DNA of 64,000 bases, from NCBI RefSeq assembly GCF_000337815.1, contig NZ_AOLN01000004.1, forward strand, positions 124,001 through 188,000, in the 5' to 3' direction. Under the pieces are notes generated by a model. That model worked only from the letters and a program-made list of their open reading frames with translations, was not told the DNA's origin and ran no database searches. Positions 32,470 to 35,887 of this stretch are shown here, in pieces. Each line of letters opens with the position of its first letter. Positions within the stretch are counted from its first letter, which is position 1. Made by a program: the position numbers and the translations under genes. The DNA is from Haloferax mucosum ATCC BAA-1512 (GTDB lineage Archaea; Halobacteriota; Halobacteria; Halobacteriales; Haloferacaceae).

Positions 32470-33678
32470 TTAGAGGTGGGTGGCTCCTGTGAGTTCGTCT
32501 ATTGCTGAACCAGAGAATTGTCGGGGTATCCTGCCCGTCGCCGCGCATCCTGTCGCTCTCTCTGTCAGGCGGTACTGTTCCAACTCTTCTTCGAGCGGGC
32601 CGAGTGCCCGCCGACGTTCTTGGTGTGCTTCGAGGAAGTTCGCAATATTTTCTGCCGCCATCTCTTTGAGTTCACCACTCAGGAGCGACCCTTGTTGATA
32701 CTCGCGTGCAAGCCGTTCCACCTGCTCATCACTTTCTTCAAAGAAGTAATACAAGAACTGATACGAGACATCCACCTCGGGGTTTCCTCCTTTTTTTCGA
32801 TGTTCTTCGAGACTAGTCTGTCCACCAGAGTAAGCGTGAGTACGGATTTTGTCGAAGACCGTCTCCCGGTCATCTGAAAGGAGGATGCTCGGTACGTCGT
32901 CGGACGAACTCATCTTCCCCGGTCCTTCGAGGCTCGGGAGGAATTTCGAGAGCAAGGCACCGGGCTTGGTCACGTCGTACCGCCGTTTGGCCGCGATGTC
33001 ACGGCAGACTCGAACGTGAGGGTCTTGGTCAACTGCAATCGGCACGAGCGTCGAGTGGCGACCCTCCACAAGTTGTGGTAGGAGGAGGTGTGTGGCTTGG
33101 ACAGCAGGGTAGAACGAGAGACCGATGTTCTCGGGTTCTCCATATGTTGCGTCCACGGTCGATTGGGTCACTTCCTTGGCAAACGCACTCGCTAACGGAT
33201 ACACTACGTCAGCATCAGCCGTGTCTACGATGATTCGGGTTCGGTCGGGGTCAAACCCGACCGCGAGAAGGTCGAGAAGGTTCTCGCGGGTGTAGTCGCT
33301 AATCTCGTCAAGCGACTTGTCTTTGAGGAAGTACTTCTCGTCGTCGGAGAAAGGGATGTAGACGAGGGTTCCCATCTGGTCTTGAAGGTACTTGGCGAAG
33401 TAGAACGGGAAGATGTGGCCGATGTGCATCGGCCCTGAGGGGCCACGTCCCGTCACGATGGAGTGCAGTTTACCTTCGTTGGCGGCCTCAAGGAAAGGGT
33501 CTACGTCTCGCTCTGCATAGAAAACGTCACGACGAACGAGCGGATGACCGGGGTCAGAGAATTTCGCCTTCTGCTCGGCAGTGAGGGCGTCAGCCCCGAA
33601 CTTATCGAGGAGTCGGTCGTAGTTGATGTCGCCTTCAACGGCGTATGGCGTTACGGTGAAGTCGTCTTCTGCTGGCAT
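32470..33678 (-). CDS. trpS: Tryptophanyl-tRNA synthetase, probable second (accessory) copy
   Basis: Class I synthetase of 402 residues. It has the HIGH motif (SGPMHIGHIF, about residue 82-91) and KMSSS (GPGKMSSSDDVPS, about 255), plus AVDQDPHVRVCRDIA, conserved in archaeal/eukaryotic-type TrpRS. It sits in an accessory island, and haloarchaea often carry two TrpRS genes, so this is likely an accessory enzyme; the other copy is not in the window. The start ATG has no TATA or Shine-Dalgarno of its own within 40 bases. The nearest promoter is at 33869, upstream of a Trp-containing leader frame. A second short frame (33651-33737, minus) overlaps its start. Confidence 0.95.
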   Translation of the reverse strand: MPAEDDFTVTPYAVEGDINYDRLLDKFGADALTAEQKAKFSDPGHPLVRRDVFYAERDVDPFLEAANEGKLHSIVTGRGPSGPMHIGHIFPFYFAKYLQDQMGTLVYIPFSDDEKYFLKDKSLDEISDYTRENLLDLLAVGFDPDRTRIIVDTADADVVYPLASAFAKEVTQSTVDATYGEPENIGLSFYPAVQATHLLLPQLVEGRHSTLVPIAVDQDPHVRVCRDIAAKRRYDVTKPGALLSKFLPSLEGPGKMSSSDDVPSILLSDDRETVFDKIRTHAYSGGQTSLEEHRKKGGNPEVDVSYQFLYYFFEESDEQVERLAREYQQGSLLSGELKEMAAENIANFLEAHQERRRALGPLEEELEQYRLTERATGCAATGRIPRQFSGSAIDELTGATHL

Positions 33679-33772
33679 GTGTGTTTGATGGTTGTTGTCA
33701 CTTTGGAGACGATACGGTTGAGAAAGCGAGTGAGCATCGCGGTCGAATCTGCCGGGTTACGCCCGTCTGACC

Positions 33773-33844
33773 CTAAACCGCGATACTGTCCACTTCCCGA
33801 GACACGTGCCAACGCCAGCAATTGGCGTGGGAAGTGGACACCAT
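33773..33844 (-). CDS. Putative Trp-containing leader peptide of trpS (23 residues)
   Basis: ATG 33844 lies exactly where the TATA element at 33869-33874 would start a leaderless RNA. The frame runs 23 codons to TAG at 33773-33775 and encodes Cys9-Trp10-Arg11-Trp12-His13 (TGG CGT TGG). Two Trp in 23 residues, when Trp is the rarest amino acid, immediately upstream of a Trp-tRNA synthetase gene, is what attenuation leaders look like. The whole frame lies over a strong hairpin. The reading is direct; the regulatory role is inference. Confidence 0.55.
   Translation of the reverse strand: MVSTSHANCWRWHVSREVDSIAV
33787..33840 (-). promoter_or_regulatory. Long hairpin over the trpS leader frame
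   Basis: TGTCCACTTCCC and GGGAAGTGGACA form a perfect 12-bp stem (33787-33798 with 33829-33840). Inside, CGCCA/TGGCG form a five-bp stem (33813-33817 with 33823-33827). The first Trp codon (33815-33817) is part of that inner stem and the second (33809-33811) is in the loop, so a ribosome paused at Trp would hold the structure open. A weak CGGG/CCCG hairpin follows at 33753-33766. No clear T-rich terminator is seen. Confidence 0.6.
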
Positions 33845-33868
33845 ACTGATATCGACGAGATTGCTCCG

Positions 33869-33874
33869 CTTATA
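33869..33874 (-). promoter_or_regulatory. TATA box for the trpS leader transcript
   Basis: TATAAG on the minus strand, 25-30 bases before ATG 33844, the standard leaderless spacing. It is the only good TATA element between trpS and the transposase gene. Confidence 0.65.
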
Positions 33875-34147
33875 GGTTCTGTTCCTCTATTCGCCTTGCA
33901 ATTGGAGAACAATCCACCCGATTATTTCTAACGTGCCTGACTTCAGAAAGACGGCGTTTGACTGATTAACAAACGAAAACGCGGGTCAGTAGACTTCTCT
34001 CAGAGCTGATTCGATGGTGACCTACTGGTCGTGGCTCTCGTCACGAAATTCGTGTTTAGAATCAGATAAAAGAACGGCTAATACACTTTCCCGGGGCAGT
34101 TTCGCCACTCGGCTGCGAGGATGAACAAGTGGAATAAACGTACTCAG
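33875..34147. other. Gene-free region downstream of transposase
   Basis: AT-rich spacer between the trpS promoter and the transposase stop. CCCGGGG at 34090-34096 may be one end of the insertion element: CCCCGGG at 36017-36023 is its inverted counterpart, but flanking similarity is weak and no target duplication is visible. Confidence 0.35.
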
Positions 34148-35887
34148 TTAGCCAATTCCAGAACCGAGGCAGAGCGCGAGGACTTCGGTTATCTCGCCTG
34201 CCGGGACTGGTGGCTTCTCACCGAGGTCCACATCGAACCACGTTCGCAACAAGAGGTTCGTCAGTCGCCACACGTTGTACACCAGTACGGCGGCGACGAA
34301 GTAGAACAGTCGAACCCGATAATCGGAGGAACTTGTAGTCGGCAGGAAGTGTTCTTTGATGCTCTTGTACTCGTTCTCAATCATCCACCGGTCCTTGTAC
34401 TGGGCTTTCAAGCCCGCTGCTCGTTCAACGGGAACGTCCGTGTTCGTGAGTAGAATGGCGTACGTTTCAGACTCCTCGTTCGGCGGGAAGTAGATGAAAT
34501 CCACTTCGTGTGTCCTGCCATCGACCGTTAACGGAACATCGTGTTTCACGGCGATGTCGGCGGTCGGATGTTCTTTGATGTTCTCAATATCCTCGATGTC
34601 CTGCGCGGCACTGACGCGTTTCGGGATGAGGTACGTCATCCCCTTCCGGTCAATCACATCGCGGACAGCGTGCCCATCGAACTCACGGTCGGCCATCACT
34701 TTGTGAATGTCCACATACTCCTGTGCCTTCGACAGGAGTCGGTCAACGACTTCCGCCTTCGACATGCTCACCGCACCATCGCCTTCCCAATTCGACTTCT
34801 CCTTCACAGGCTCCATCGCCAGCACAATCGGCGTGTCTTCCCCAATCACTGTGAGTGTGGCAAACTTGTACCCGCGCTCATAGTCAGAAGCAGGGTCGTC
34901 TTCGGAGGGACCTGAATAGCCACTTACCATCTTGGGGAAATCTTCCTTCACGATGCCGAGGTCGCGGTTCTTCCACGGTGATGGGTAAAACCGCCACGGC
35001 GTCACGTCGATAGCGACATTCACTGGCTCGCGTAGATTGTCCTCGAAATCGGTCTCTTTGATGAGATTCTCGATGGCTCTGTCGAACGGGTCGAGCAACG
35101 TCTTCCGAATCCGCTTCCACTTTCTCAATCCTGTTGGGTCGGTAAACTCCGGTAACTTCGTCTGTGGGTCGGGGGCACCCATCTTCTTGATGGCCCGCGT
35201 GTGCGTATCACCGTGCGGCATCTCGGGGCGCTGGCTCAACCGGCTCGCTCGGCGTTTCGTTTCCCGTTTTCCGTGTGCTGTCATTGAGAGATACGATTGG
35301 AGTTCCCAATACACCTCGTCCTCGTACTTCGCGTTCGCTGCGCGTCCCGTAGCGAACTCTGTGAACACGCGGTCGCGGGCAATCCGAACAGCCCGCAATA
35401 TCTCATCATCAGTCAACCCCTTCTCTCCACGTTCCTCGGGCTGAATTGGAGGTCCTTCATCCGGGGCGCTCAGCAAATCATGCTCAGCGGCAACCTCTCG
35501 AATCCCTTCAGCAACAGTCGTCAAGGTCTGTCGGTCCTGAATCGACAGTCGGTTCCGGTACGTGTACGAGAGTGCCTGTTGAGTCGGTGCGCGGTTTAGT
35601 CCGAATCGAATCTGGAGGTACGCCCACCGCCGGAGCCGACTGTAGACTTCCCGCTGGCTGAACCCGCAGGCATTCTGGTAGAGTAACGTCCGCACAACAG
35701 CCTCGAAATCTAACTCGTCGGGGTACGCCTTCGTGTATTGGTCTGTGAAGGTATCTTCGGGAATTTCGAGATTTGCGATAACACGAGTGATGTGGTCGTG
35801 GACGTGACAGAGCCGTTCCGCCTGCTTGATGAGTGCCGTCGCTCTCCTAGACGGCGGTCCAGACGACGACTCGCCAGCGCCTCTCAT
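34148..35887 (-). CDS. IS4-family DDE transposase
   Basis: A 579-residue transposase. The acidic triad is Asp294 (VAIDVTPWRF), Asp400 (VMADREFDG) and Glu504 in the IS4 signature Y-x2-R-x3-E-x6-K (Tyr497, Arg500, Glu504, Lys511). The N-terminal 200 residues include an HTH-like region (NACGFSQREVYSRLRRW) typical of these long haloarchaeal transposases. The frame is intact, so the element may be active. Its promoter region holds a palindrome also found before the wHTH gene at 36095. Element ends are uncertain. Confidence 0.92.
   Translation of the reverse strand: MRGAGESSSGPPSRRATALIKQAERLCHVHDHITRVIANLEIPEDTFTDQYTKAYPDELDFEAVVRTLLYQNACGFSQREVYSRLRRWAYLQIRFGLNRAPTQQALSYTYRNRLSIQDRQTLTTVAEGIREVAAEHDLLSAPDEGPPIQPEERGEKGLTDDEILRAVRIARDRVFTEFATGRAANAKYEDEVYWELQSYLSMTAHGKRETKRRASRLSQRPEMPHGDTHTRAIKKMGAPDPQTKLPEFTDPTGLRKWKRIRKTLLDPFDRAIENLIKETDFEDNLREPVNVAIDVTPWRFYPSPWKNRDLGIVKEDFPKMVSGYSGPSEDDPASDYERGYKFATLTVIGEDTPIVLAMEPVKEKSNWEGDGAVSMSKAEVVDRLLSKAQEYVDIHKVMADREFDGHAVRDVIDRKGMTYLIPKRVSAAQDIEDIENIKEHPTADIAVKHDVPLTVDGRTHEVDFIYFPPNEESETYAILLTNTDVPVERAAGLKAQYKDRWMIENEYKSIKEHFLPTTSSSDYRVRLFYFVAAVLVYNVWRLTNLLLRTWFDVDLGEKPPVPAGEITEVLALCLGSGIG

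Follow-up and report, generated by a model that had tools for sequence, protein, structure and literature searches.

The window analysed here, a stretch of 64,000 nucleotides from Haloferax mucosum ATCC BAA-1512, carries on its minus strand a trpS gene preceded by a short leader frame, two RNA stems and a pyrimidine-rich tract. In the order in which they would be transcribed, the features are the following:

33869..33882, minus strand: BRE/TATA promoter element (..gaacctataag), 25-38 nt 5' of the leader ATG, recognized by its sequence and by the positional information across leaders
33773..33844, minus strand: leader ORF of 23 codons plus TAG, encoding MVSTSHANCWRWHVSREVDSIAV, recognized by its sequence and by the comparison of leaders
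33787..33840, minus strand: stem 1, enclosing the Trp codons; 33840-33829 paired with 33798-33787 (12 bp) and, inside, 33828-33823 with 33817-33812 (6 bp); supported by folding and compensatory changes
33809..33817, minus strand: Trp-Arg-Trp codons TGG CGT TGG (codons 10-12), at which ribosomes are inferred to stall
33733..33787, minus strand: stem 2; 33787-33776 paired with 33744-33733, extended by 33773-33769/33749-33745 and 33765-33762/33756-33753; supported by folding and by a conserved and covarying stem base
33720..33732, minus strand: pyrimidine-rich tract CACTCGCTTTCTC, immediately 3' of stem 2, its sequence complementary to that of the stem 1 3' arm; candidate element for termination/antitermination
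32470..33678, minus strand: trpS, accessory haloarchaeal tryptophanyl-tRNA synthetase TrpS2, 402 aa, above the cut-off of NCBIfam NF008927, with relatives of solved structure

The encoded TrpS2 scores 563.6 bits against NF008927 (haloarchaeal TrpRS, PRK12285.1-4), whose curated cut-off is 478, and is about 32% identical to the second tryptophanyl-tRNA synthetase (TrpRS) of the same genome. It is present in 134 of the 391 genomes of the class and plasmid-borne in several, the nearest plasmid match being to pHME505 of Haloferax mediterranei (93%), on which the trpS copy (L376) is flanked by integrase and transposase genes. At the H. mucosum locus, a transposase gene (34148-35887 of the window, minus strand) adjoins the trpS unit and the local GC content is lower; the low GC and the transposase neighbour suggest a mobile, acquired, accessory trpS island. 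A viral spread of TrpS2 was rejected, as no viral contig encodes a relative.

Upstream of trpS, the TATAAG sequence (33874-33869) stands 30 to 25 nt ahead of the ATG at 33844, which opens the frame 33844-33773, with Trp as codons 10 and 12, and 94 nt separate the leader stop codon from the trpS start. A first-pass annotation of this DNA had described the same arrangement, that is TATAAG 25-30 bases before a 23-codon ATG frame with Trp-Arg-Trp at positions 10-12, followed after about 95 bases by a trpS start devoid of any TATA or Shine-Dalgarno (SD) motif of its own. The comparison of upstream regions is in full agreement with the latter point: position-specific information across leaders peaks at -38 to -26 from the leader ATG, in the haloarchaeal BRE/TATA form, no comparable promoter signal is detected at the trpS ATG in the same comparison, and an SD-like motif is found at 0 of 138 trpS starts. 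The trpS start region is T-poor and A/C-rich, and the ATG-to-ATG spacing between leader and trpS varies from 124 to 255 nt. A leaderless start is predicted for the leader transcript.

Published data from Haloferax volcanii are relevant here. In their dRNA-seq study, Babski et al. (2016; PMC4983044) reported a 23-aa ORF in the long 5'-UTR of HVO_A0127, a tryptophan--tRNA ligase gene with no additional transcription start site (TSS) at the gene itself, a 26-aa ORF in the 5'-UTR of HVO_2948 (pheS), and leaderless transcripts for 72% of protein-coding transcripts. These ORFs of 23 and 26 aa resemble the present leaders in having a TSS upstream and no second start at the synthetase gene but, in the section of the study concerned, are listed merely as small 5'-UTR ORFs, without codon content, structure, conservation or regulatory role. 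They are very likely the same leaders as those considered here, which is not shown, the sequences not having been compared; a mass of 2743 Da is listed for the H. volcanii peptide and fits none of the seven 23-aa leader peptides computed. A TSS mapped just before trpS would have refuted the first-pass interpretation, and the lack of an extra one in H. volcanii (PMC4983044) answers this objection only in part.

The conservation of the Trp-codon frame was evaluated in the 600 nt upstream of 142 TrpS2 homologues. A leader with one or more Trp codons in frame is present in 138 of these regions, and Trp-x-Trp or Trp-Trp in 129, as exemplified by MQSAPTGWRWRAPGADSLAAAA and MTSALEWSWRWQTPSRADSVVVAGDVA; in Halobacterium salinarum, with TrpS2 at locus L254, the matching leader (L166) reads MQSAPCGWRWRVRGADSFAAAA. 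All leaders found (138/138) have an in-frame Trp in their first 60 nt, with a mean of 2.3 Trp and only a few retaining a single Trp codon, while the control open ATG frames of the same regions contain any Trp in 53 of 323 cases and a Trp pair in 3 of 323. Conserved TGG codons in a short frame of relatives, which had been put forward as a check of the initial proposal, are thus observed. The four regions without the frame comprise three without any leader (L046, L073, L084) and one that directly abuts another coding region (L173).

The codon between the two Trp codons is of eleven kinds, including CGC, CGT, CGG, CGA, CAG, CAC, CCG, TGC and TCG, and this variation indicates that the Trp codons themselves are conserved, not merely one RNA string. 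In addition, the 3' arm of stem 1 occurs in different phases with respect to the ATG and certain frames have already terminated ahead of it, yet the Trp codons are always in frame, as would be predicted for selection acting on Trp decoding rather than on an RNA string. The last Trp codon and the 3' arm are separated by a median of 11 nt. The position of the leader stop varies widely, so that steps needing a ribosome at the stop are not conserved. Natural variants were also encountered: a leader in which one TGG has become TGA, truncating the frame inside stem 1 (L103, G286), an intact Trp-Arg-Trp leader ahead of a truncated trpS copy (L312, G312:C6:266822), and an orphan, decayed leader without trpS downstream on plasmid unnamed3 of Haladaptatus halobius (L375:3001-3127).

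The conserved Trp-Arg-Trp core, together with an ..ADS.. segment conserved in many leaders, could also be taken as a sign that the 23-aa peptide has a function of its own in trans, as a small protein. Nevertheless, the peptides range from 12 to 37 aa, neither their C-terminus nor the frame past the Trp codons is conserved, and the ADS segment is the RNA stem read in frame, which leaves very little room for such a function.

With regard to the RNA, the arms of stem 1, TGTCCACTTCCC and GGGAAGTGGACA, form a perfect helix of 12 bp; the 64-kb window has no other perfect inverted repeat of 12 bp whose loop is at most 45 nt. This helix over the frame had been correctly identified by the first-pass annotation; the inner stem that it placed on the first Trp codon exists as well, with a length of 6 bp (ACGCCA/TGGCGT) instead of the 5 bp given. 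It had missed both stem 2, which is as strong as stem 1, adjoins it and holds the last codons of the leader, and the pyrimidine tract. The folding energy of the leader RNA is -71.5 kcal/mol vs -53.8 kcal/mol for dinucleotide shuffles (z -4.4, 0/200). In an alignment of 75 sequences, 90.8% of the cells of stem 1 and of the base of stem 2 are paired, as compared to 36-49% in controls slid by 1-3 columns, and double-change cells amount to 121 against 44 after shuffling (0/500); a broader sample of 41 leaders, those ahead of other genes among them, gives 93.1% paired cells and 11 covarying pairs. The compensatory stem changes expected in relatives under the initial proposal are hence seen in both alignments. 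That the hairpin might be the inverted repeat of a mobile element, or a chance structure with an accidental ORF, could be argued from the transposase ORF next door (34148-35887) and the lower local GC, but such an origin is refuted by the conservation of the leader in many haloarchaeal genera and its linkage to trpS, and can practically be dismissed.

The pyrimidine tract after stem 2 is also conserved across leaders. Two partners are possible for the 3' arm of stem 1, namely its 5' arm and this tract, and the 3' arms pair best with the tracts of their own sequence type. Support for the alternative helix is weak, however: 81.8% of cells are paired vs 58-75% in slid controls, with weak covariation. 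Besides, the tract past stem 2 contains short T runs but no long U run, which makes for a weaker signal than that of a classical terminator.

With a covariance model, the same leader is also detected ahead of TrpS1, in several genera; in the 14 tested genomes with the leader on TrpS1, this enzyme is the sole TrpRS. Out of 48 TrpS2 genomes tested, 45 also possess TrpS1, and all 45 have the leader on TrpS2, while the three with TrpS2 only are exactly those without a leader (L046, L073, L084). The probability of such a match by chance is about 6e-5 in a simple hypergeometric calculation, uncorrected for relatedness; two of the three genomes belong to one genus, in which further members carry both enzymes as well as the leader. 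Whether the leader was lost from these three genomes or never present, either is possible. Weak matches of the model (E 1e-5 to 0.05) lay mostly inside unrelated coding regions and were discarded.

The same two stems also occur ahead of genes that do not code for a TrpRS:

L313, L335: leader copies ahead of an ABC transporter gene, in two genomes of one genus (..LGPVLWHGS..)
L301, L314, L320, L322: leader copies ahead of GNAT acetyltransferase genes, those of three genomes with peptides without Trp (MSAPNASAGRSRERTVRSAA, MSALSTFAVTSRERTVRSAA, MRVASHPNMCGRHTEKRPVSR) and one ahead of a further acetyltransferase gene (MVALSGWRRRVPGRATSVVSSR)

Since three of these six leaders lack Trp codons, the conservation of the latter depends on the downstream gene. 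The two-stem platform may serve other stall signals ahead of the acetyltransferase and ABC transporter genes.

A leader with a different codon content precedes pheS:

L372:712-798 (G000:C11); L348-L351, L353-L368, L370, L371, L374: Phe-codon leaders ahead of pheS, with their own BRE/TATA-like element and a two-stem RNA

In 24 of 30 pheS loci of relatives, the leader ends with a Phe cluster (GFGFFFLTA, GFDFFFAA, GFGFFFPA) and has no Trp; three or more Phe are found in none of the trpS leaders. The BRE/TATA-like element lies at the proper distance, one stem directly follows the ATG and another the stop, and no Rfam match was obtained for the pheS loci. In a scan of 464 kb (the window itself and 400 kb from its chromosome contig), which looked ahead of long ORFs for short frames with a cluster of amino acids and a BRE/TATA box and did not cover trp biosynthesis genes located elsewhere, the trpS and pheS leaders were the sole clean cases, the remaining hits being mostly GTG frames, distant from their ORF, or within coding sequence.

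These comparisons make it possible to ask whether the RNA alone could be the sensor, through T-box-like tRNA binding, a riboswitch or a protein site, the Trp codons being a by-product of the conserved TGGCGCTGG motif. The near invariance of the 3' arm of stem 1, GAGCGGACAGT, and of the base of stem 2 would be in line with this idea. It is hardly compatible with Trp codons that remain in frame with the ATG despite the changing arm phase, with the variable middle codon, with the three acetyltransferase leaders that keep the stems without an in-frame TGG, or with the matching Phe codons that the pheS leader has instead. In addition, the trp leader has no Rfam match at the gathering score and no relevant one at a relaxed E-value. 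An RNA-only sensor is accordingly considered improbable. By contrast, the sensing of ribosome position on the Trp codons appears highly probable, on comparative evidence and without experiment. The archaeal ribosome-mediated sensing leader proposed by the first-pass annotation is to that extent supported by comparison, the sensing of charged tRNA-Trp and the switch itself remaining inferences.

The putative mechanism can be outlined as follows. Transcription would begin at or a few bases from the leader ATG, as inferred from the promoter position and from the start reported for H. volcanii upstream of an equally long frame (PMC4983044), and would run through stem 1, stem 2 and the tract into trpS, the leader being presumably translated from a leaderless 5' end. 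When charged tRNA-Trp is scarce, or TrpRS inhibited, a ribosome would stall on the Trp codons within stem 1; judging from the geometry (the median of 11 nt), it would mask the 5' arm and free the 3' arm, which could then sequester the pyrimidine tract by pairing with it, allowing transcription to proceed into trpS. With tRNA-Trp in its charged form, stem 1 would re-form, leaving the tract past stem 2 exposed and leading to an early end of transcription. Stem 2 and the tract would thus constitute a termination site, at which the U-tract-dependent factor aCPSF1 perhaps assists and whose use would be prevented by the pairing of 3' arm and tract. The terminators described for H. volcanii include T stretches with TC as well as hairpins; in a reporter, 59% of transcripts were terminated by a hairpin located upstream (PMC7237163). 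aCPSF1 is reported to work with U tracts in archaea (PMC8716108).

Taken as a whole, the interpretation as a leader-peptide regulator of trpS is regarded as probable, in the absence of expression, ribosome-profiling or 3'-end data for trpS. Other points that weigh against it are the short T runs of the tract, the weak support for the alternative helix, the variable leader stop, the natural TGG-to-TGA variant, the few leaders with a single Trp codon and the mismatch in the H. volcanii peptide mass. That its output is transcription attenuation, and not the control of translation or mRNA stability, is inferred with less than even confidence. Many SD-less messages are translated in haloarchaea, and it is a serious, if tentative, possibility that the same sensor has another output, the position of the leader ribosome altering the folding and thereby controlling trpS translation or mRNA stability. 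The absence of a long U tract past stem 2, the T-poor trpS start region without SD-like motif and the haloarchaeal translation of SD-less messages all speak in its favour, but the leader-to-trpS spacing is variable, no conserved pairing with the trpS start is seen, and the conserved block finishes at the pyrimidine tract.

Beyond trpS, it seems reasonably likely that haloarchaea possess general, modular leader-peptide sensors, in which a two-stem platform bears Trp codons before either TrpRS gene and other peptides before acetyltransferase or ABC transporter genes, with a parallel Phe leader before pheS. If true, Archaea would thereby have their first case of amino-acid-specific regulation by leader peptides, acting on leaderless messages and with a eukaryote-like RNA polymerase. 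Control by the position of a ribosome on a leader peptide is a textbook case of bacterial regulation and depends on the coupling of transcription to translation; its presence in archaea, with codons matched to two amino acids and under a eukaryote-like transcription, would mean that the principle re-arose or is older than thought. Such a system would also allow transcription-translation coupling and regulated termination to be tested directly in archaea, and provide a ready-made Trp- or Phe-responsive switch in genetically tractable haloarchaea.

When compared with known systems, the trpS leaders satisfy two criteria of bacterial attenuators, namely clustered codons in a short leader ORF and a downstream gene, TrpS2 or TrpS1, that charges the same amino acid. 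As for two further hallmarks of such attenuators, the evidence for RNA structures that exclude each other by sharing one arm is weak on the side of the second pairing, and in place of a GC-rich hairpin with a U run there is stem 2 with its tract of short T runs. They fail the criterion of the T-box RNA family, for want of an Rfam match. The T-box riboswitches of Firmicutes likewise regulate aminoacyl-tRNA synthetase genes by tRNA charging but bind the tRNA itself and can do without a translated leader. An auxiliary TrpRS of Streptomyces has reportedly been studied by experiment. Attenuators were predicted ahead of trpS (trpS2) in this genus (PMC1262725). These similarly combine a short leader frame with Trp codons 5' of an accessory TrpRS gene and alternative RNA structures, the latter being weakly supported in the haloarchaeal case; they are, however, bacterial, with a GC-rich terminator and a poly-U, whereas the haloarchaeal leader has a predicted leaderless start, no poly-U and an unrelated RNA. 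No description of archaeal leader-peptide attenuation was found in the literature, of which only open-access text was covered; as far as could be found, predicted attenuators before trpS are known in bacteria and the archaeal case is apparently undescribed. In E. coli, the pheST leader (pheM) carries, like the bacterial trp operon leaders, runs of cognate codons ahead of the matching synthetase or pathway gene. The haloarchaeal pheS leader is closely analogous to pheM in its design, although the E. coli pheM and trp leaders differ in domain, promoter type, translation start and termination machinery, and have no known sequence relation to the leaders described here.
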